A stretch of 64,000 nucleotides of DNA from Streptomyces sp. SLBN-31 (GTDB taxonomy: Bacteria > Actinomycetota > Actinomycetes > Streptomycetales > Streptomycetaceae). Both the position numbers and the translations under genes were made by a program. The number at the start of each line of letters is the position of its first letter. Position 1 is the first letter of the stretch. Of this stretch, positions 15,375 through 53,001 are shown in pieces. The notes beneath the pieces are model-generated. The model did not search any database and had not been told where the DNA came from. It saw nothing but the letters and a program-made list of their open reading frames with translations. The DNA lies in contig NZ_VFNC01000001.1 in the NCBI RefSeq assembly GCF_006715395.1, forward strand, positions 868,001 through 932,000, written 5' to 3'.

Positions 15375-15935
15375 ATGAGCGCCGAGACTCCTGCCGCACC
15401 CGTCGGCCAGTTCAGCCGCCGGAGGCTGCAGTTCCGCGCCTGGCGGGGTACGAGGCCGTTCTGGGCCGGACTGTTCGTCCTGCTCGCCGGCTTTCCGATC
15501 ATGTACTTCCCGTACGCGCATCTCCAGGTCGGTCACCTGACGTTGGCGATGGCCACCACCGGCGGAGCCGGTTCCCTGATCATCGGCGTGCTGCTCGTCG
15601 TCCTCGGCGTCAGCCTCTGGTTCCAGAAGCACGTACGGGTCTTCGCGGGCGTCGCCGCGATCCTGCTGGGCCTGGTGTCCATCCCGGTGTCCAATCTCGG
15701 CGGGTTCCTGATGGGGTTCCTGCTGTCGCTGGTGGGCGGGGCCATGGCCATCGCCTGGGCGCCGGGCGCGGAGCCCGGCGAGCAGCCGGCCCAGGAGGAC
15801 ACCACCGGGACGGGCGGTGCGCCGCAGGCCACCGACCCCGACACCGCCATCCTCAAGCCCGTGGTGGGCGAGCCGAACGATCTGTCAGGAACGAGCCCGG
15901 CCAACGGGGCGAACGGGAGGCACAGTGCCGGCTGA
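15375..15935 (+). CDS. DUF6114 integral membrane protein
   Basis: A 186-residue membrane protein of the DUF6114 family. Seen: a basic cytoplasmic N-terminus (RRRLQFRAWRGTRPFW), four hydrophobic helices (about residues 28-45, 55-82, 88-105 and 110-127), and an acidic, Pro/Thr-rich C-terminal tail (about 130-186). ATG 15375 fits the family N-terminus. The last 11 bases overlap the next gene, which starts at GTG 15925. DUF6114 is regularly found beside DUF6230, suggesting one envelope complex (inference from synteny). Confidence 0.85.
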   Translation: MSAETPAAPVGQFSRRRLQFRAWRGTRPFWAGLFVLLAGFPIMYFPYAHLQVGHLTLAMATTGGAGSLIIGVLLVVLGVSLWFQKHVRVFAGVAAILLGLVSIPVSNLGGFLMGFLLSLVGGAMAIAWAPGAEPGEQPAQEDTTGTGGAPQATDPDTAILKPVVGEPNDLSGTSPANGANGRHSAG

Positions 15936-17253
15936 CGAGGTGACCCACGGGGCTGATGTGGACGAGTCCCGTGTGAGAACCGGGCCGCGCCACGCGGCAC
16001 CCAAGAAGCCGCTGTTCACCCGGTTCCACATGCCGGCCGGCAAGGCGATAGCCATGGCGGCGATGCCGACCGCCGTCCTCATGGGCATGGGCTTCACGTC
16101 CTCGCTCGCCCTCGCGGACAGTGGTGGCTCGACGCCGACAGCGAAGAGCCTGACCGCCGACGAGTACAAGAACTGCGTTGCCGCGCTGGACGGTTCCTCG
16201 GCCTCGCCGTCGCCGTCCGCCTCGGCGAGCTCCAGCGACTCGGCCGATACCGCGACGCCCTCGCCGTCGTCCTCCGCCGGCACGTCGAAGGACTCCTCCG
16301 CAACGGGCACGGACTCGGGCACGGCCTCTTCGTCGGATTCAGGTTCCGACGACAAGGCCTCGCCCAGCCCGTCCGCGACGGACAGCGGGAGCAAGGACAC
16401 GTCCGGCGGCGCCACCGCCACGCCGACCCCCTCGGCGTCCGCGAGCGGCGACAGCGGCGGCGGTCTGCTGGGCGACCTCGGCGACGCGATCACCGGGATC
16501 TTCACCGGCGGCTCCGACTCCTCGTCGAGCGCGAGCCCGTCGCCGTCCCCCTCCGCGTCCTCCTCGTCGAGCGACACGTCCAAGGACTCCTCGACGTCGA
16601 GCGCGTCCGACACCGTGAAGGACACGACCAAGAAGGTCACCGACACGGTCAAGAAGACGACCGACACGGCCACCGGCACGGCCCAGGACGTCACCAAGTC
16701 GGTCGAGAAGGCAGCCGAGACGGCCACCTCCTCGCCGAGCCCGTCGGCGAGCTCCAGCACCGACGCGCAGAACTGCCCCGCCGCCACCGAGGACGTCAGC
16801 GGTGTCGACAACAAGGTGGCGGTGGCGGACGACCCCTGGTACCTCAGCGCCAGTTCGCTGCTGCTGAAGGGGGCCGACTACCAGGGCGTCGTCGAGGTGA
16901 AGACGGCCAACGGCACCAAGAAGAAGGTGCTGAAGTACGTCATATCGAACGGCACGGACATCGGCGACCTGAACCAGACGGTCAAGGACAAGCAGCAGAA
17001 CAAGACGTACCACGTGGAAGCCGGGAAGGGGACGACGTCCACCATCCGTGACGGCGACACCACGATGTACACGGAGTCCATCTCCGGGAACCTGTTCGGG
17101 CTGATCCCGATCACGTTCAGCCCCGACAACCCGCCGCCGCTGAACATCCCGTTGATCTACTTCACCAACGTCAAGGTCGTCCAGGCCGCCCAGTTCGGTG
17201 GCACGCTGCACGTGCCGGGCATGCACCTGTACACGACCGACGGAATCGGCTGA
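15925..17253 (+). CDS. Secreted or anchored Ser/Thr/Pro-rich protein of the DUF6230/DUF6114 operon
   Basis: A 442-residue protein with three parts. Residues 1-65 have a basic segment then a hydrophobic stretch (KAIAMAAMPTAVLMGMGF) followed by ALA, like a signal peptide or anchor. Residues about 90-295 are low-complexity Ser/Thr/Asp/Pro with Lys/Thr-rich helices (TVKDTTKKVTDTVKKTTDT). Residues about 300-442 are a folded-looking beta domain with LLLKGADYQGVVEVKTANG. GTG 15925, preceded by GGGAGG (15915-15920), overlaps DUF6114 by 11 bp. The spacer looks designed to cross the cell wall (inference). No catalytic motif is recognised. Confidence 0.8.
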   Translation: MPADEVTHGADVDESRVRTGPRHAAPKKPLFTRFHMPAGKAIAMAAMPTAVLMGMGFTSSLALADSGGSTPTAKSLTADEYKNCVAALDGSSASPSPSASASSSDSADTATPSPSSSAGTSKDSSATGTDSGTASSSDSGSDDKASPSPSATDSGSKDTSGGATATPTPSASASGDSGGGLLGDLGDAITGIFTGGSDSSSSASPSPSPSASSSSSDTSKDSSTSSASDTVKDTTKKVTDTVKKTTDTATGTAQDVTKSVEKAAETATSSPSPSASSSTDAQNCPAATEDVSGVDNKVAVADDPWYLSASSLLLKGADYQGVVEVKTANGTKKKVLKYVISNGTDIGDLNQTVKDKQQNKTYHVEAGKGTTSTIRDGDTTMYTESISGNLFGLIPITFSPDNPPPLNIPLIYFTNVKVVQAAQFGGTLHVPGMHLYTTDGIG

Positions 17254-40531: not shown

Positions 40532-43429
40532 TCAGGCCGGTCGCAGCCAGATGGTCGCGAGCGGCGGGAGGGTCAGGCGGATGCTCGCCGGGCGGCCGTG
40601 CCAGCCCTGCGGCTCGGGCTTGACGACGTCCGCGTTGGTGACGCCGCCGCCGCCGTACTTGCCGATGTCCGTGTTGAGGTACTCGTGCCAGGCCGGTACG
40701 TCGTCGGGGGCGCCCAGCCGGTAGTCCTGCCGGACGACGGGGGAGAGGTTGGAGACGGCCAGCAGGGGGCTGCCGTCGGCGGCGAACCGCAGGAACGCGA
40801 AGACGTTGTCCTCCGCCGCGTCGCCCACGATCCACTCGAAGCCCGCCGGGTCGGTGTCCTGCTCCCACAGGGCCGGGGTGTGCCGGTAGACGGTGTTGAG
40901 GTCGCGGACCAGGTCCTGCACCCCGCGGTGGTCGGCCTGGGCGCCGTAGCCCGGGTCGAGCAGCCACCAGTCGGGCCCGCGTGCCTCCGACCACTCGGCT
41001 CCCTGCGCGAACTCCTGCCCCATGAACAGCAGTTGCTTGCCCGGGTGGGCCCACATGAAGGCCAGGTAGGCGCGCAGGTTGGCTCGCTGCTGCCACCAGT
41101 CGCCGGGCATCTTCGACACCAGCGACCGCTTGCCGTGGACGACCTCGTCGTGCGAGATCGGCAGCACGTAGTTCTCGCTGTAGGCGTACACCATCGAGAA
41201 CGTCATCTCGTTGTGGTGGTACTTGCGGTAGACCGGCTCGTGGCTCATGTAGTCGAGCGAGTCGTGCATCCAGCCCATGTTCCACTTCAGGCCGAAGCCC
41301 AGGCCGCCGAAGCCGCCCGGACCGCGGTGGTGCGTGGCCCGCGTGACGCCGTCCCACGCGGTGGACTCCTCGGCGATGGTCACCACGCCCGGCACCCGCC
41401 GGTACACCGTCGCGTTCATCTCCTGCAGGAACGCCACCGCGTCCAGGTTCTCCCGGCCGCCGTGCTCGTTCGGCACCCACTGCCCCGGCTCGCGCGAGTA
41501 GTCCAGGTACAGCATGGAGGCCACGGCGTCGACCCGCAGGCCGTCGATGTGGAACTCCTCGCACCAGTAGACGGCGTTCGCCACCAGGAAGTTGCGTACC
41601 TCGCGGCGGCCGTAGTCGAACTCCAGGGTGCCCCAGTCGGGGTGCGCGGACCGCAACGGGTCCTCGTGCTCGTAGAGGGGCCGCCCGTCGAACTCGGCCA
41701 ACGCCCAGTCGTCGCGCGGGAAGTGGGCCGGAACCCAGTCCATCAGGACGCCGATGCCGGCCTGGTGGAGCGCGTCGACCAGATACCGGAAGTCGTCCGG
41801 GGTGCCGAGGCGGGCCGTGGGCGCGTAGAAGCCGGTGACCTGGTAGCCCCAGGAGCCGCCGAAGGGGTGCTCGGCGACCGGCATCAGCTCCACGTGGGTG
41901 AAGCCGAGGTCCTTGACGTACGCGGGCAGCTGCTCGGCGAGCTGACGGTACGTCAGACCAGGTCGCCAGGACGGCAGATGGATTTCGTAGACGGAGAAGG
42001 GGGCCTGGTGGGCGGGGAGTTCCGCGCGCCGGGAGAGCCATTCCTCGTCCCGCCACTCGTGGTGGGAGGCGGTCACTATCGACGACGTGTCCGGCGGCTC
42101 CTGGGTGCGGCGGGCCAGCGGGTCGGCGCGCAGGGTCTTCGAGCCGTCCGGGCGGGTGATCTGGAACTTGTACAGCTCGCCCTCGCCGACCCCGGGCAGG
42201 AACAGCTCCCACACACCGGAGGAGCCCAGGGAACGCATGGGATGGCCGGTGCCGTCCCAGAAGTTGAAGGTGCCGGCCACGTGCACTCCGCGCGCGTTCG
42301 GCGCCCACACCGAGAACCGGGTGCCGGCCACGCCCTGGTGGGTCATCGGGTGTGCGCCCAGCACGGTCCACAGCTGCTCGTGCCGGCCCTCCCCGATCAG
42401 GTGCAGGTCCAGCTCGCCCAGCGTCGGCAGGAATCCGTAGGCGTCGTCGGTGTCCTGGACGGTGCCCTCGTACGTCACCTGGAGCCGGTAGGCCGGAACC
42501 TCGGCCAGGGGCACCAGTGCGGAGAAGAACCCGTCCCCGTCGTCGTGCAGCTCCGCCCGCAGCTCCCCCGCGACGACCGTCACGGCCAGCGCGTACGGCC
42601 GGAAGACGCGGAAGGCGACCCCGCCCGGGACGAGGTGGGCGCCGAGGACGGTGTGCGGGTCGTGATGCGTACCGGCGAGCAGCCGCTCGCGGTCGCCGGC
42701 GTCCAGGGCGGCGGAGGCCTCCGGCACGGGGACGGGGGCCGGCGAGCCGGCACCCGCCGCAGTGACCTCGCGGGAGGAACTCGCGGCGGCGTGCTCGGCG
42801 GCAGTGGTGTCCGCGGCGACGGCCTGGGACGCGGTGGTACCGACGGTGGTCGCCTCGGCCGCGACCTTCTTCGTCGCGGCCTTCCCGGCCGGGGTCTTCT
42901 TGGCGGCCGTCTTCGACGGGGCCGCCTTCTTCGCGGCCGCCTTCTTCACGGGGGCCGGTGCCGCCGCGGTCTTCCCCGCGGTGGTCGCCTTCTTCGCGGT
43001 CGCCTTCGTCGTGACGGCCTTCGCGGCGACGGCCTGCTCGGCGACCGTCTCCCCGGCCACCGCCTTCTTCGCGGCGGTCTTCTTCGCCACCGCCTTCTTC
43101 GCGAGGGCCTTCTCGGCCGGGGTCTTGGCCGCGACGACCTTCTTCGCCGGGCTCTTCTTCGCGGCGGTCTTCTTCGCCGTGCCCTCGCCCGTCGTGGCCT
43201 TGCGCGCCGCTGCCTTCACGGGCGTCGCCTTCTTCGCGGCGGCCTTCTCGGCGACCGCCTTCTCGGGCGTGGTCTTCTCGGCCGTCTTCCTGGCGGCCGG
43301 CGCCTTCTTCGGCGCGACGGCCTTCTCCGCCACCTTCTTCACAGTTTTCGCGGCCTTCTTGGCCGTCTCCTCGGCCGTTTTCTTCGGACTCTTCGGATCC
43401 GAACCGCTGGACGTGGGGCGGGGGGTCAC
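40532..43429 (-). CDS. glgB: Glycogen branching enzyme with an H1-like lysine/alanine N-terminal tail
   Basis: Transfers alpha-1,4-glucan segments to make alpha-1,6 branches. The catalytic part (about residue 241 onward) has the CBM48-like N domain, the GH13 barrel, nucleophile Asp in [11 protein letters not shown] (about residue 634) and acid/base Glu in [11 protein letters not shown]. Residues about 10-190 are instead Lys/Ala/Thr-rich ([28 protein letters not shown]), like histone H1 tails, then a Ser/Ala/Pro linker. GTG 43429 is chosen because GGAGG precedes it; MAVRPDGG at 43519 would overlap pep2. The total 965 residues is well above the usual 640-780. It ends the glgE operon order on the minus strand, 32 bp after pep2. 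Confidence 0.92.
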
Positions 43430-43461
43430 GGGCGGCGCCTCCTCGGCGAGGGTCGGTCGGT

Positions 43462-44850
43462 TCAGTACAGGTCGGACGTGGCGTAGTGCTCTATCGCCGC
43501 CATCGGGACGGACAGCCATTCGGGGCGGTGGCGGGCCTCGTAGAGCACCTCGTATATCGCCTTGTCCGTTTCGTATGCTCGCAGCAGCACCGGGTCGGTG
43601 CGTGGATCCTGGCCGCTGACCTCGGCGTATCCGGTGCAGAAGGCGGCCCGGCAGGTCTCGGCCCAGCCCTCGTCGGGCCGTTCGGCGGAGTGGGCCGCGT
43701 AGTCGAAGGACCGCAGCATGCCCGCCACGTCCCTCTCCGTCGGCTGCGGCATCCGCCGCTCCGCCAGCGGTTTCGACGGCTCACCCTCGAAGTCGATCAG
43801 CCACCACTGGCCGCCCGGCGAGCGCAGGCACTGTCCGAGGTGCAGGTCCCCGTGGATCCGCTGCGCGGTCCAGGTACGGCCCTCGGCGGCCAGGTCGGCC
43901 AGCGCGGTGAACGCCGTGCGCAGCGCGGGCGCGTACGGCCGCAGTGCGGGCACCGCCTGCGCGGCCGCGTCGAGGCGTTCCGTCATGCCGTCGGCCAGCA
44001 GCTGCATCTGGGTGTGCCCGAGCGTGACGGTCGGCAGGGCGCGGGCCAGCGCGGTGTGCACCTCGGCGGTGGCGCGGCCCAGCGCCCGGGCCTCGCTGCC
44101 GAAGTCCTCGCCCTTGGCGAGTTCCCGCAGCGCCAGCTCCCAGCCGTCGGAGGCGCCCTGCAGGAAGGGCTGCAGCACGCCGAGCACGTACGGCTCACCG
44201 CCCAGCTCCGCCCGCACCCACGCCGTCGGCGCCGGCACCCGGGGGCAGCCCTCCCGGGCGAGGGCCAGCGGCAGCTCCAGATCGGGGTTGACGCCGGGCA
44301 CCACCCGGCGCAACAGCTTCAGAATGAACGTATCTCCATAGATGACGGAGGAGTTCGACTGCTCGGCGGTCACCACGCGTGGGACGAGTCCGGAGCGGAT
44401 CTCGTGGCCGGCCTCGCGCTCGAAGCGCAGCCCGCCGATGCGGGCCTCGGAGCGCAGGGCCTCCAGGAGCACCTCGGCGGACCGGCCGTCGTACAGGGCC
44501 TCGTAGACTGTCCGGCCGGCGAGCGGGCCGTCCTCCACGTGTCCGATCAGCGCGGGCGCCAGCCGGGGCGGCAGCGCCTCGCGCACGCCTATCAGGAGCT
44601 GGTAGCAGTCACCGGGGTGCGGCTCGGCACCCAGGGTGAGCGGCTGATGGGCGCGCACCAGCAGGTGGTACAGGCCCAGCTTGCCGCCGGCCGGCAACAG
44701 CTCGGTGGCCTCTACCAGTGAGAATCCGGTGACCGGGCGTCCCTTGCCCGCGAACCAGCGCTGCCTCGGCAACCATTCCCTGAGCAATGGGTCCAGGGAT
44801 TCCAGCAGGCCAGGGCTGGTCTTGCCGGAAAGTGTGACCGTTTCCGCCAT
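43462..44850 (-). CDS. mak: Maltokinase (Mak/Pep2)
   Basis: Phosphorylates maltose with ATP to maltose-1-phosphate for GlgE. Seen: 462 residues; N-terminal [17 protein letters not shown]; the kinase-like loop [17 protein letters not shown] and [17 protein letters not shown] with the catalytic and Mg-binding Asp residues; C-terminal helical part. ATG 44850. It lies between treS and glgB. TreS and Mak are separate proteins here, not fused as in some other actinobacteria. Confidence 0.94.
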
Positions 44851-44945: not shown

Positions 44946-46642
<1,697 letters not shown>

Positions 46643-46646
<4 letters not shown>

Positions 46647-48694
46647 ATGGTGGGTGACCCTCCGATCTGCGGGGTGGACGGTCGCAGGACGGTGAACACG
46701 TGCGCCGGACGAGTGCCCGGTTCGAGGCGTACGTAATTTGCCCTGCCCCAGTGGTAGGTCTCGCCGGTGAGCTCGTCACGCACCGGCACCGACTCGTGCC
46801 AGTCCAGGCCGAGTTGCGGCATGTCCAACGAGACCGTGGCCTCCTGGGTGTGGTGGGGGTCGAGGTTGGCGACCACCAGAACAGTGTTCGATCCGCTCCG
46901 CTTCGAGTACGCGATGACGGCGTCCTGGTCCGCGTGGTGGAAGTGGAGGTCGCGCAGTTGGCGGAGGGCGGGGTTCGCCCGCCGGATGGTGTTGAGTTTG
47001 GTGATCAGGGGGGTGATGGTGCGGCCCTGGCGTTCGGCCGTCTCCCAGTCGCGGGGTTTGAGCTGGTACTTCTCCGAGTCCAGGTATTCCTCGCTGCCCT
47101 GGCGCAGCGGGATGTTCTCGCACAGCTCGTAGCCGGAGTACACCCCCCAGGTCGGCGAGAGGGTGGCGGCCAGGACCGCGCGGACCTCGAAGGCGGGCCG
47201 GCCGCCGTGCTGGAGGTACTCGTGCAGGATGTCGGGGGTGTTGACGAAGAAGTTCGGCCGCATGTAGGCCGCCGTGTCCGTCGACAGCTCGGTGAGGTAG
47301 TCGGTCAGCTCCTGCTTGGAGTTGCGCCAGGTGAAATACGTGTACGACTGCTGGAAACCGATCTGGGCCAGGGTGCGCATCATCGCCGGCCGGGTGAACG
47401 CCTCGGCCAGGAAGATCACGTCCGGGGCGGCGGCGTTGATCTCGGCGATCACCCGCTGCCAGAACACCACCGGCTTGGTGTGCGGGTTGTCCACCCGGAA
47501 GATCCGCACCCCCGCCGCCATCCACACCCGCAGCACCCGCAGCGTCTCGGCGACCAGCCCGTCCATGTCGGCGTCGAAGGCGATGGGGTAGATGTCCTGG
47601 TACTTCTTCGGCGGGTTCTCGGCGTAGGCGATGGTGCCGTCGGGCCGGTGGTGGAACCACTCGGGATGCTTGTGCACCCACGGATGGTCCGGCGAGCACT
47701 GCAGGGCGAAGTCCAGCGCGATCTCCAGCCCCTGCGCGCGGGCCTGCTCCACGAACCAGGCGAAGTCCTCCATCGTGCCCAGCCGCGGGTGCACGCTGTC
47801 GTGGCCGCCCTCCGGCGAACCGATCGCCCACGGCACCCCCACATCCTCCGGGCCGGGGGTGAGGGTGTTGTTGCGGCCCTTGCGGAACGTGGTGCCGATC
47901 GGATGGATCGGCGGCAGATAGACGACGTCGAAACCCATCGCCGCGATCGCCCGCAACCGCCGGGCCGCGGTCCGGAAACTGCCGTGCGGCTCCTCGGCGG
48001 TCCCCTCCGAACGCGGGAAGAACTCGTACCAGGCGCCGTACAGCGCCCGCTCCCGCTCCACCAGCAGCGGCAGCGTCTCCGAGGCCGTCACCAGCTCCCG
48101 CAACGGATGCGCGGCCAGCGCCGCGTCCACCTCCGGCGTCAACGCCGCCGCCAGCCGGGAGGCGGCCGGACGTGACTCGTCGCGCAGGGCGGCGGCCGCG
48201 GCCAGCACGGTGTCGCATGCCGGCGCGGGCGCGTCGGCGGCCGCCCGTTCGTACAGCCGTGCGCCCTCCTCCAGGACCAGCTCCGTGTCCATGCCGGCGG
48301 GGATCTTGATCTGGGCGTGGTGGCGCCAGGTGGCGACCGGGTCGCCCCAGGCCTCCACGGTGTACGTCCAGTGGCCGGGTTCTCCGGCGGTGACGGTGGC
48401 GCCCCAGCGGTCGGTACCGGGGGCCAGCTCGCGCATCGGCGTCCAGGGGCCCGGTCGGCCCTCGGGGTCGGTGAGGACGACATTGGCGGCGACGGCGTCG
48501 TGGCCCTCGCGGAAAACGGTGGCCGAGATCTCGAACGACTCTCCGGTGACCGCCTTCGCGGGGAGGCGGCCGTGCTGGACGACCGGGCGGACGTCGAGGA
48601 CAGGGATGCGTCCGACGCCGGCGGTGGCCGGCCGGTCGCAGGGCGTCTCGGCGCTGGGTGTCGGGGGTGCTGACGAGTGGTGCGTGGCGGGCAT
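46643..48694 (-). CDS. glgE: Alpha-1,4-glucan:maltose-1-phosphate maltosyltransferase
   Basis: Adds maltosyl units from maltose-1-phosphate to alpha-1,4-glucan chains; GH13_3 enzyme (Pep1). Seen: 683 residues; N-terminal sandwich domain; [11 protein letters not shown]; nucleophile Asp in [11 protein letters not shown]; acid/base Glu in [10 protein letters not shown]; and TYFTWRN. ATG 48694 has AGGAG at good spacing. It leads glgE-treS-mak-glgB on the minus strand. The 227 bp upstream holds the terminator of the subtilisin gene and must include the operon promoter; I could not pick out boxes with confidence. Confidence 0.96.
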
Positions 48695-48856
48695 GACCGC
48701 TCCTGTCCGCGTCAACGTGGGTGGCCGGTTGGCTGTGGGGAGGGGGGTCCTGCGTGGCTTCTGTCGTGAAAGGTACCGGAGGAGCCTTCCCACCCTGTTC
48801 GGGTGAGCATTCCGGCACTTTGTTAACTACTCACGCGTTTGTCTACACACAAGACT

Positions 48857-48882: not shown

Positions 48883-48921
48883 GTCTCTGGGCCAAGTTCC
48901 CACGAAGTTCCTACGTAGTTC

Positions 48922-50121
48922 CTAAGAAGACGGCACCTGCAGCAGTTCGTCCGGCGAACCGGGTCCCCGTCCGGTTACCCCGGAGACCGCCAGTCGGAAC
49001 AGGGCGCGGGCGACCTGTGCCGGCGTGGCCCTCGGATGGCCGGCCAGGTACAGCGCGGCGGCGCCCGTCGCGTGCGGTGTCGCCATCGACGTGCCCGAGA
49101 AGGTCGCCTTCGCGGTGTCGCTCGTACCCCAGGCCGAGGTGATCGACACCCCTGGCGCGAAAAGGTCGACGGCGCCTCCGTAGTCGGAGAACCCCGCCCG
49201 GGCGTCCGTGCGGTCGGTCGCGCCGACCGTGATGGCCTCCTTGACGTCCGCCGGGGAGTGCAGGGCCGCCGGCATGCCGTCGTTCCCGGCCGCGACGGCG
49301 TAGGTGACACCGGAGGCGATGGAGTTGCGGACGGCCGCGTCGAGCTGGGCGTTGTGAACGGTGCCCAGGCTGAGGTTGGCCACCGCCGGCTTCCTCGCGT
49401 GCCGGGTCACCCAGTCGATCCCCGCGATGACCTGCGACGTCGTACCGGAACCGGAGCTGTCGAGGACCCTTACGGCGACCACCTTCGCCTTCTTGGCCAC
49501 GCCGTACGCGGTGCCCGCGACGGTCCCGGCGACGTGCGTGCCGTGGCCGTTGCCGTCCGAGGCGGTCCTGTCGTTTCCTATGAAGTCCCAGCCGTAGCTC
49601 GCGCGCCCGCCGAAGTCCTTGTGGGTGATCCGGATGCCGGTGTCGATCACGTAGACGGTCACCCCGGCGCCGGCGGAGGAGGGCCAGCTGTACCTCCCGT
49701 CCAGTGGCGCGGCCGGCTGGTCAATGCGGTCCAGGCCCCAGGACGGCGGTGTGCGCTGGGTGCGGTCGAGGGCGACGCGGGTGTCCTGGGCCACCGAGGC
49801 GACGCGCGGGTCGGCCGCGATCGCAGCCGCCTGTCTCGCGTCGGCTTCGATCGCGTAGCCGTTGAGGACCGAGCCGTAGGTGTGGCTGATTCGCGCACCG
49901 TATTTCTCGGCGATGCCCCTTCCCGCCGACGTCGGAGCCTTCGTTCCCCCCTGGAGCGTCACCAGGTAACTGCCGCTGACGGAGCCGGGCCGGCCGGCGC
50001 CGAGTATCCGCCCCTCCGGTGCGGCGTGCGCGGGCAGGGTGGCGGCCGAGAGCGCGGCGGCACAGGCCACCGCGGTCGGTCCCGCTGCCCGGCGCAGACG
50101 TCTGCTTCGCGTCCGTGCCAT
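48922..50121 (-). CDS. Secreted subtilisin-like serine protease (S8)
   Basis: A 399-residue extracellular peptidase. Seen: a Tat-like signal peptide ([20 protein letters not shown] and a hydrophobic run to AHAAP), an inhibitor-I9 propeptide (about 45-115), and the catalytic domain with Asp in [14 protein letters not shown], His in [14 protein letters not shown] and Ser in [15 protein letters not shown]. It matches the proteinase K subfamily. ATG 50121, preceded by GGGAGGGG. It is downstream of nothing on its strand and diverges from glgP, so it is probably a single-gene unit. Target proteins unknown. Confidence 0.94.
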
Positions 50122-50382: not shown

Positions 50383-53001
50383 GTGAAGGCTATCCGTCGT
50401 TTCACCGTCCGGCCCGTTCTCCCCGACCCCTTGCGGCCGCTCAGCGATCTCGCGCGCAATCTGCGCTGGTCCTGGCATGCGGAGACCCGCGACCTCTTCC
50501 AGTCCGTCGACCCCGAACGCTGGGCCGCCTCCGAGGGCGATCCGGTCCGGCTGCTCGGCAGCGTGTCGCCGGCGCGGCTCGCGGAGCTGGCCGAGGACCG
50601 CCGGTTCCTGCGCCGGCTGACGGCGGTCGTGGACGACCTCAACGACTATGTGACCGGCGAGCGCTGGTACCAGGCGCAGTCCGGCGGGCTCCCGGCCGCC
50701 GTCGCCTACTTCTCACCCGAGTTCGGCGTCACGGCCGCCCTGCCGCAGTACTCCGGCGGCCTCGGCATCCTGGCCGGCGACCACCTCAAGGCCGCCAGCG
50801 ACCTCGGCGTCCCGCTGATCGGCGTGGGACTGCTCTACCGGCACGGCTACTTCCGGCAGTCGCTCTCCCGTGACGGCTGGCAGCAGGAGCACTACCCGGT
50901 CCTCGACCCCAACGAGCTGCCGGTGACGCTGCTGAACGAGCCCGACGGCACCCCCGCCCAGGTCTCCCTCGCCCTGCCCGGCGGCCGGCGGCTGCACGCC
51001 CGGATCTGGCTGGCCCAGGTCGGCCGGGTGCCCCTGCTCATGCTCGACTCGGACGTCGAGGAGAACGACCTCGGCGAGCGCGGGGTGACCGACCGGCTCT
51101 ACGGCGGCGGCAGCGAGCACCGGCTGCTGCAGGAGATGCTGCTCGGCATAGGAGGAGTGCGGGCGGTGCGGACGTACTGCCGGCTGACCGGGCACCCGGA
51201 GCCGGAGGTGTTCCACACCAACGAGGGGCACGCGGGCTTCCTCGGCCTGGAACGCATCGCCGAACTGTGCGCCGAGGGGCTGGACTTCGACTCCGCGCTG
51301 GAGGCGGTGCGCGCCGGGACCGTCTTCACCACCCACACGCCCGTCCCGGCCGGCATCGACCGCTTCGACCGCGAGCTCGTCGCCCACCACTTCGGCCCCG
51401 ACGCCGAGCTGCCGAGCATCGACGTCGAGCGCGTGCTCCGGCTCGGCATGGAGACCTACCCCGGCGGCGAACCCAACCTGTTCAACATGGCCGTGATGGG
51501 CCTGCGCCTGGGCCAGCGCGCCAACGGCGTCTCGCTGCTGCACGGCCACGTCAGCCGGGAGATGTTCTCCGGACTGTGGCCGGGATTCGACCCCGACGAG
51601 GTGCCGATCACCTCCGTCACCAACGGCGTCCACGCCCCCACCTGGGTGGCCCCCGAGGTGTTCCGGCTCGGCGCCCGGCAGATCGGCGCCCAGCGCACCG
51701 AGGACGCGCTGACCGTCGGCGCCTCCGACCGCTGGGACGCCGTCGCCGACATTCCCGACCAGGACATCTGGGAGCTGCGCCGCAACCTGCGCGAGCAGCT
51801 GGTCGACGAGGTGCGCGCGCGGCTGCGCGCCTCGTGGCGGCAGCGCGGCGCCGGAACGGCCGAGCTGGGGTGGATCGACGGGGTGCTGGACCCCGACGTC
51901 CTCACCATCGGCTTCGCCCGCCGGGTCCCGTCGTACAAGCGCCTCACCCTCATGCTCCGCGACCGCGACCGGCTGATGGAACTGCTCCTGCACCCGGAGC
52001 GGCCCCTGCAGATCGTCGTGGCGGGCAAGGCGCACCCGGCGGACGACGGCGGCAAGCGCCTGGTCCAGGAGCTGGTCCGGTTCGCCGACGACCCCCGGGT
52101 CCGCCACCGCATCGTCTTCCTGCCCGACTACGGCATGGCGATGGCGCAGAAGCTCTACCCGGGCTGCGACATCTGGCTGAACAACCCGCTGCGCCCGCTG
52201 GAGGCCTGCGGCACGTCCGGCATGAAGGCGGCTCTCAACGGCTGCCTCAACCTCTCGGTCCTGGACGGCTGGTGGGACGAGTGGTTCCAGCCCGACTTCG
52301 GCTGGGCGATCCCCACGGCGGACGGGGTGGGCACCGACCCGGACCGGCGCGACGACATAGAGGCGGAGGCGCTGTACGACCTGCTGGAGCAGCGGGTGGC
52401 ACCCCGCTTCTACGAACGCGGACAGCACGGACTGCCCGACCGCTGGATCGAGATGGTCCGCCAGACCCTGACCCTCCTCGGTCCGAAGGTGCTGGCCGGC
52501 CGCATGGTGCGCGAGTACGTGGAGCGCCTCTACGCCCCGGCCGCGCAGGCGCACCGCGCGATGGACCCCGACTCCGCGCGCGAACTCGCCGCCTGGAAGG
52601 GGCGGGTGCGGGCCGCCTGGCACGAGGTGAAGGTCGACCACGTGGAGACGTCGGCCACCACGGCCACCGCGGAACTGGGCACCACGCTCGCCCTGCGGGT
52701 ACGCGTCGCCCTCGGCGACCTCGGTCCGGACGACGTGGAGGTGCAGGCCGTCTCCGGCCGGGTCGACACCCAGGACCGCATCGCGGACGCCGAGGCGGTC
52801 CCGCTGAAACCGGCGGGCGCCCCGGACCAGGACGGCCGCTGGGTCTACGAGGGCCCCCTCTCCCTCGACCGCACCGGCCCCTACGGCTACACCGTCCGCA
52901 TCCTGCCGGCGCACCGACTGCTGGCCTCCGGCGCGGAGTTGGGACTGGTGGCGGTGCCCAGCGAGGAGACCGGCGAGGGGGCGGGGGTGCTGATGCGCTA
53001 G
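50383..53001 (+). CDS. glgP: Alpha-glucan (glycogen) phosphorylase
   Basis: Releases glucose-1-phosphate from alpha-glucan ends, using pyridoxal phosphate. Seen: 872 residues, the shorter actinobacterial type; an N-terminal DUF3417 part (DLARNLRWSWHAETRDLF); the catalytic domain with YFSPEFGVTAALPQYSGGLG and HTNEGHAGF; and the PLP-binding Lys about residue 615 in GTSGMKAALNGCLNLS. GTG 50383 follows GAGGTGGGAAA. It reads away from the glgE operon and counters its activity, so the two units may be regulated in opposite ways (inference). Confidence 0.95.
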   Translation: MKAIRRFTVRPVLPDPLRPLSDLARNLRWSWHAETRDLFQSVDPERWAASEGDPVRLLGSVSPARLAELAEDRRFLRRLTAVVDDLNDYVTGERWYQAQSGGLPAAVAYFSPEFGVTAALPQYSGGLGILAGDHLKAASDLGVPLIGVGLLYRHGYFRQSLSRDGWQQEHYPVLDPNELPVTLLNEPDGTPAQVSLALPGGRRLHARIWLAQVGRVPLLMLDSDVEENDLGERGVTDRLYGGGSEHRLLQEMLLGIGGVRAVRTYCRLTGHPEPEVFHTNEGHAGFLGLERIAELCAEGLDFDSALEAVRAGTVFTTHTPVPAGIDRFDRELVAHHFGPDAELPSIDVERVLRLGMETYPGGEPNLFNMAVMGLRLGQRANGVSLLHGHVSREMFSGLWPGFDPDEVPITSVTNGVHAPTWVAPEVFRLGARQIGAQRTEDALTVGASDRWDAVADIPDQDIWELRRNLREQLVDEVRARLRASWRQRGAGTAELGWIDGVLDPDVLTIGFARRVPSYKRLTLMLRDRDRLMELLLHPERPLQIVVAGKAHPADDGGKRLVQELVRFADDPRVRHRIVFLPDYGMAMAQKLYPGCDIWLNNPLRPLEACGTSGMKAALNGCLNLSVLDGWWDEWFQPDFGWAIPTADGVGTDPDRRDDIEAEALYDLLEQRVAPRFYERGQHGLPDRWIEMVRQTLTLLGPKVLAGRMVREYVERLYAPAAQAHRAMDPDSARELAAWKGRVRAAWHEVKVDHVETSATTATAELGTTLALRVRVALGDLGPDDVEVQAVSGRVDTQDRIADAEAVPLKPAGAPDQDGRWVYEGPLSLDRTGPYGYTVRILPAHRLLASGAELGLVAVPSEETGEGAGVLMR

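Follow-up and report, generated by a model that had tools for sequence, protein, structure and literature searches.

The glgB locus and its enzyme

The window, the 64,000-nucleotide stretch of Streptomyces sp. SLBN-31 DNA analysed here, encodes a glycogen branching enzyme, GlgB, whose N-terminus is a long tail rich in lysine and alanine. The relevant features are:

40532..43429, minus strand: glgB, glycogen branching enzyme with an N-terminal Lys/Ala tail, 965 aa (translation and TIGR01515)
42698..43429, minus strand: tail and linker, residues 1-244, net charge +35 (composition; AlphaFold)
42815..43396, minus strand: core of Lys/Ala/Thr repeats (residues 12-205), its KK doublets frequently at a spacing of 5 (translation; HC2 match)
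42698..42814, minus strand: Ala/Ser/Thr/Pro-rich linker, residues 206-244 (translation)
40532..42697, minus strand: catalytic body with GlgB_N, CBM48, alpha-amylase and C-terminal domains, net charge -36 (Pfam)
43438..43444, minus strand: glgB Shine-Dalgarno sequence, GAGGAGG, 8 bases ahead of the GTG start
43462..44850, minus strand: pep2, probable maltokinase (TIGR02457, 210 bits, under the cut-off of 375)
44946..46646, minus strand: treS, maltose alpha-D-glucosyltransferase (TIGR02456, 998 bits, cut-off 678)
46643..48793, minus strand: probable glgE, maltosyltransferase (gene order)
50383..53001, plus strand: glgP, alpha-glucan phosphorylase (TIGR02094, 773 bits, cut-off 192)

The glgB gene runs on the minus strand from a GTG start at 43429 to a stop at 40532, and lies 32 bases from the stop of pep2. 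The pep2, treS and probable glgE genes are aligned with glgB, while glgP is farther out on the opposite strand. No NCBIfam model reached its own cut-off in the frame at 46643..48793, which is presumably glgE given the gene order at such loci. The neighbourhood matches the trehalose-to-glucan (GlgE) pathway gene set outlined in PMC5042117. Upstream of the probable glgE, an 11-base tandem repeat of 3.3 copies (48894-48929) overlaps a frame for a subtilisin-like protease at its 3' end. Elsewhere in the window, a 478 aa frame (15817-17253) contains a long Ser/Thr/Pro/Asp-rich stretch with a short K-T repeat, flanked by a hydrophobic segment on one side and a C-terminal domain on the other.

Judged by its sequence, the protein behind the tail is an intact type 1 branching enzyme (GH13). 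It scores 993 bits against TIGR01515 (cut-off 464), and the N1 (GlgB_N), CBM48, amylase and C-terminal domains all exceed their Pfam cut-offs. D634, E687 and D761, which we take to be the catalytic Asp/Glu/Asp, are present, and are invariant in 51 sequences. Most of the body is modelled by AlphaFold at high pLDDT, the loops at 521-533 and 721-747 being weaker, and residues 244-965 align across nearly the entire chain of Mycobacterium tuberculosis GlgB (PDB 3k1d; solved chain 722 aa), which, unlike the window enzyme, has no Lys/Ala tail. The body contains 10 Lys and 48 Arg.

The translation start that takes in the tail is well supported by the sequence, as the preliminary description had assumed. 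In the interval from the upstream stop to the enzyme, the GTG behind GAGGAGG is the sole in-frame start with a Shine-Dalgarno match of at least 4, and 114 of 121 proteins (window GlgB plus 120 relatives among the matches listed) begin with [MV]TP. On the Shine-Dalgarno position and the N-termini of the relatives, we reject a wrong start call. We scored a Lys/Ala (KA) tail at a cut-off of our own (at least 16 Lys, more Lys than Arg, net charge at least +10); window GlgB and its 120 listed matches pass it in 119 of 121 cases, ruling out an artefact of one assembly.

A lysine-repeat tail on a glycogen enzyme

Residues 1-244 comprise 79 Ala, 48 Lys, 32 Thr, 14 Glu and 4 Arg, with two residues of the Ile, Leu, Met, Phe, Trp, Tyr and Cys set. 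The positive charge of this region balances the acidic body, leaving the whole protein at -1. The densest 50-residue stretch holds 15 Lys, compared with a maximum of 3-4 in the GlgE, TreS, Pep2 and GlgP frames; 46 of the 48 tail lysine codons are AAG. KK doublets (16) and closely spaced KK pairs (5) both exceed the values in shuffled tails (9.3 +/- 2.4 and 0.9 +/- 1.1, respectively). The tail is predicted to be disordered: AlphaFold pLDDT is below 50 across residues 1-229, and the model contains one low-confidence helix, at residues 17-35. No obvious acidic tail that could act as a partner was seen on GlgE, TreS or Pep2.

Lys-rich, Arg-poor, terminal and carrying KK doublets, the tail has the features of a lysine repeat. 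It matches the Pfam histone H1-like nucleoprotein family HC2 (PF07382) above the cut-off of 40, with 47.0 bits for whole GlgB and 43.1 bits for residues 1-244 alone, and by our count 109 of the 120 GlgB relatives among the matches listed have the same label. HC2 proteins generally stand alone. This match, the KK excess over shuffles and the full set of branching-enzyme domains bear out the earlier proposal that a normal GlgB carries a Lys/Ala tail of H1-like character. The resemblance to histone tails, however, is compositional, extending to residue content and spacing: the NCBIfam H1-like models fall below cut-off on the tail alone (NF038053, 46.3 versus 80; NF038052, 28.1 versus 135), and the longest DNA runs shared with seven genes such as hupS and topA, at 14-22 bases, are within those expected from synonymous shuffling. 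Copying of the tail from such genes is therefore unsupported.

Known Streptomyces carriers of lysine-repeat tails include HupS, TopA, HrdB and Ku (PMC7398561). The GlgB tail resembles these in its lysine content (23% versus 21-33% in six other tails), in KK doublets often spaced by 5, in its few arginines and in its terminal placement. It contains more Glu (5%) and is less densely charged (19 versus 29-33 per 100 aa) and, unlike HupS and TopA, GlgB is a glycogen enzyme without a nucleic-acid domain. An HC2 profile search of the window's genome returned nine places at E <=0.1, glgB being the only one above cut-off. Six of the other eight are linked by Pfam to nucleic acid or RNA polymerase, namely a HupS-type HU protein tailed at its C-terminus, topoisomerase I (TopA), an HhH-GPD protein (EndoIII type), RNase E/G, FtsK and a DksA/TraR zinc finger, while two frames (L227 and L230) have no Pfam match. 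Across 41 Streptomyces genomes, HC2 was matched in all 41 and above cut-off in 24. Thirty HC2 loci taken from these genomes comprise 12 HupS, 6 TopA, 4 DksA-type and 3 GlgB proteins, with single cases of an RNase E/G, an EndoIII-type protein, a sigma-70 factor, an L230-like protein and an unclassified frame; by our reading, with a Pfam check on 8, 25 of the 30 are nucleic-acid or RNA-polymerase kinds, 3 GlgB and 2 unclassified, although a profile search of this type is not an unbiased census of Lys/Ala tails. Published lysine repeats likewise sit chiefly on DNA-binding proteins (PMC7398561, PMC11229371, PMC6821194), whereas the low-complexity regions of polysaccharide-related proteins are Ser/Thr-rich, although its authors caution that two organisms supply many of them (PMC6821194). 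Tailed GlgB is thus an exception. In the window's own genome, N-terminal Lys/Ala stretches also occur on the EndoIII-type glycosylase (L225), the DksA/TraR-type zinc finger (L224) and FtsK (L229). The proteins at L230 and a further locus, L312, start similarly; in each, an acidic stretch precedes a Lys/Ala tail at the C-terminus, with no clear Pfam domain.

GlgBs with more than 100 aa before N1, mostly from Actinobacteria, have been termed 'Type 3', and their N0 region guessed to be a distant CBM48 relative; Streptomyces avermitilis Q82JF0 is an example (PMC6339891). The window tail, unlike N0 as guessed, has no CBM48 match (a Pfam scan at E 0.01 gave HC2 only) and is predicted to be disordered; nothing in it backs the CBM48 proposal. 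It speaks against viewing long GlgB N-termini as extra carbohydrate-binding domains. No paper on this Lys/Ala tail came up among those listed by our literature searches, though PMC5714199, cited as a repeat survey of Streptomyces proteins, may already name GlgB.

Distribution and evolution of the tail

The distribution of the tail was mapped on a GlgB tree (FastTree; some deep branches weak) of a non-random sample of 208 rows, or 202 distinct bodies once 6 duplicates were removed, of which 151 were Streptomyces-type. Rows were drawn from L002, 30 loci, 100 sequences hand-chosen among the matches listed and 80 named loci; two partial sequences (L075 and L111) and one with no readable start (L166) were left out of the counts. 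Starts were picked by motif or Shine-Dalgarno score and are doubtful for L024, L184, L186 and several outgroups, and L196 contains masked letters. A KA tail was found in 42 of the 202 bodies, all 42 of them Streptomyces-type, and 41 fall inside one GlgB-I clade of 73 sampled leaves; the exception, L190, sits outside. This near-restriction to one GlgB-I clade sets the tail apart from those of HupS and TopA.

In the remaining 32 clade leaves, below the cut-off, the tail is missing or a stub. They include Lys-rich stubs of 57-73 aa, near-complete losses (12-26 aa), a group with mostly VTSKK or VTPKK N-termini, and three sequences (L064, L149 and L033) in which 14-19 Lys are offset by acidic residues or by as much Arg (17-19 Lys, acid-balanced, in L064 and L149). 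L024, whose start is uncertain, instead displays a Pro/Thr/Ala stretch of net charge -25. Two genomes each encode near-sister GlgB-I copies, one tailed and one untailed (L139/L156 and L023/L171). Streptomyces GlgB-I proteins elsewhere in the tree have N-terminal extensions of 14-450 aa, mostly with more Arg than Lys, while the eight GlgB-II leaves carry 25-32 aa ahead of the enzyme with zero Lys; one of these eight is the GlgB-II paralogue encoded by the window's own genome (735 aa). These data show that GlgB-I of Streptomyces usually has an extended N-terminus, of which the Lys/Ala form is a clade trait. The mapping called for at the outset therefore recovers the tail in 41 of 73 members of one GlgB-I clade, but not genus-wide, which the clade restriction and the losses rule out, nor in GlgB-II; what that description lacked is that the Lys/Ala form belongs to a single clade and to just one of the two isoenzymes, and that its reduction or loss is frequent. 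Of 40 tailed genomes, 39 had at least two GlgB matches, as did 33 of the 84 others, a comparison that involves essentially one clade and for which an independent-pairs test is without power.

Outside Streptomyces, the N-termini of 19 readable GlgBs from other genera of the family (20 fetched; the start of L244 is unreadable) contain 0-3 Lys, leaving a whole-family trait unsupported. Among 120 Microbacteriaceae-type relatives, at least 6 Lys occur in 15 and at least 16 Lys in 2 of those, the N-termini reaching up to 109 aa with 18 Lys. Short N-termini are frequent in this set (P0123-P0242), and Lys exceeds Arg in 97 of the 120. A class-level survey of 40 loci chosen among the matches listed contained one clear Lys/Ala stretch (L273, 17 Lys in the 100 residues preceding the enzyme), one basic N-terminus with an uncertain start (L256) and one weak case (L290). 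By sequence, these shorter Lys-rich N-termini on some distant Actinomycete GlgBs probably arose independently.

The tail is coding, constrained and fast-changing. In 33 close pairs of tailed genes its dN/dS ranges from 0.20 to 0.93 (median 0.41), about four times that of the body (median 0.11), and is below 1 in 33/33, although alignment anchoring on repeats may depress the value. Over 492 close protein pairs, which are not independent of one another, tail length differs by a median of 25 residues and is equal in 33. Strain-to-strain variation in length, predicted earlier from the repeats, is evident in nine records named S. massasporeus (tails of 290-320 residues, net +43 to +52) and five named S. 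griseorubiginosus (261-325 residues). The window copy itself displays no sign of recent slippage, 18-mers being repeated in 9 of 706 cases, and its adjacent Ala codons are 1.5 sd more alike than shuffled. Among 11 tail residues tallied within the same 492 pairs, retention is highest for lysine (0.877), followed by Pro (0.835), Gln (0.834) and Ala (0.829). Substitutions between Lys and Glu (1225) are as common as those between Lys and Arg (1141), suggesting that charge is not strongly kept site by site. Net charge nevertheless grows with length across the 42 tails (rho 0.74). K/(K+R) is 0.85 in tails inside the GlgB-I clade, compared with 0.29 in the 78 Streptomyces rows outside it (GlgB-II included) and 0.16 in bodies.

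Possible roles of the tail

The data are suggestive of a tether between one of the two branching enzymes in the cell and DNA, RNA or some other partner of negative charge. Of the proposed functions, binding to a polyanion has the most support, since the other carriers of such tails in this genome mostly handle nucleic acid. We tentatively favour, at somewhat less than an even chance, a disordered lysine-repeat tether on one isoenzyme that holds it to nucleic acid or another polyanion through weak, multivalent, electrostatic contacts; the binding, its ligand, and the placement and regulation of the tailed enzyme we infer from the comparisons above. The tail would be of the HupS/TopA kind, set on one of two branching enzymes, and its lysines would contact nucleoid DNA, RNA or other polyanion in a salt-sensitive manner, so that GlgB-I would be held or concentrated there while untailed GlgB-II remained free. 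The HC2 match, the company and make-up of such tails, lysine ahead of an Arg-rich body, dN/dS below 1, the retention of lysine, the predicted disorder, the rise of charge with length and the Lys-rich N-termini of Microbacteriaceae-type GlgBs and L273 count for the tether. Against it stand the 32 clade members below the cut-off, the many losses indicating that the tail is not needed for branching itself, the tailed and untailed near-sister copies, the parity of Lys-Glu and Lys-Arg exchange and the faster evolution of the tail. Moreover, a nucleoid proteome of S. coelicolor (PMC3784963) names neither GlgB, SCO5440 nor glycogen in its main text, and E. coli accumulates its glycogen in space free of the nucleoid, the two being mutually exclusive (PMC12706056). 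A nucleoid-bound GlgB would, speculatively, work where nucleoid and glycogen meet or on small glucans at an early stage. The cell wall or teichoic acid, also considered initially, is an unlikely partner because the GlgB pathway is cytosolic.

A rival explanation is near-neutral, low-complexity drift, in which a disordered GlgB-I extension of little consequence turned to Lys/Ala in one clade and was kept by mild solubility selection. The varied make-up of other GlgB-I extensions, the many losses, the variable length, the Lys-Glu exchanges and the Pro/Thr/Ala stretch of L024 (start uncertain) are consistent with this explanation. We nevertheless consider it somewhat unlikely, as lysine enrichment opposes the arginine bias of the genome, all 33 pairs have tail dN/dS below 1 (with the reservation on anchoring given above), Lys-rich N-termini recur in other groups and the window copy shows no sign of recent slippage. 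Alternatively, the basic tail may pair with the acidic body, within or between molecules, leading to assembly or condensation on the growing glucan or to shielding of the enzyme. The near-neutral sum of tail and body fits such self-association, as does a median whole-protein charge of -7 for GlgBs of 40 tailed genomes versus -26.5 for those of 84 untailed genomes. Bodies without tails, however, are equally acidic (-32 in 84 untailed Streptomyces and -35 in 51 outgroup rows), so no tail-body co-evolution is seen, and the proposal is unlikely. Such body acidity is common among cytosolic enzymes.

Still more doubtful is a tail that binds polyphosphate or provides a platform for lysine modification (acetylation or pupylation) controlling activity or turnover. 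In E. coli, polyphosphate is bound by YihI through an N-terminus that is disordered and Lys-rich (PMC12345225); acetylation of HupS extends to its tail (PMC11229371); and Actinobacteria, which use Pup, have many proteins poor in lysine (PMC10665810). The PASK polyphosphate motif (20 residues, at least 75% D/E/S/K, one K), however, is absent: its best fraction is 0.60 in the window tail, and the 0.75 threshold is reached by 0/42 KA tails. A literature search by title and abstract start found no paper on modification of a GlgB tail. Under the preferred polyanion tether, acetylation could tune the attachment of GlgB-I, by analogy with HupS. An extended version, in which a histone-like, acetylation-tunable tail ties GlgB-I to the nucleoid and couples chromosome and glycogen store in hyphae, with strain-variable length tuning the coupling and with more than one origin in Actinomycetes, is quite improbable.

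In Streptomyces, lysine-repeat tails are regarded as marking DNA-binding proteins, and their occurrence on a sugar-polymer enzyme would point to a broader role for them or to a link of carbon storage to chromosome or RNA organisation. The split between tailed GlgB-I and untailed GlgB-II is reminiscent of the branching isoenzymes, each tissue-specific, that Bruton et al. reportedly described from S. coelicolor in 1995. Natural comparisons are at hand in tailed GlgB-I and untailed GlgB-II within one cell, the near-sister copies in two genomes and the losses in related species.
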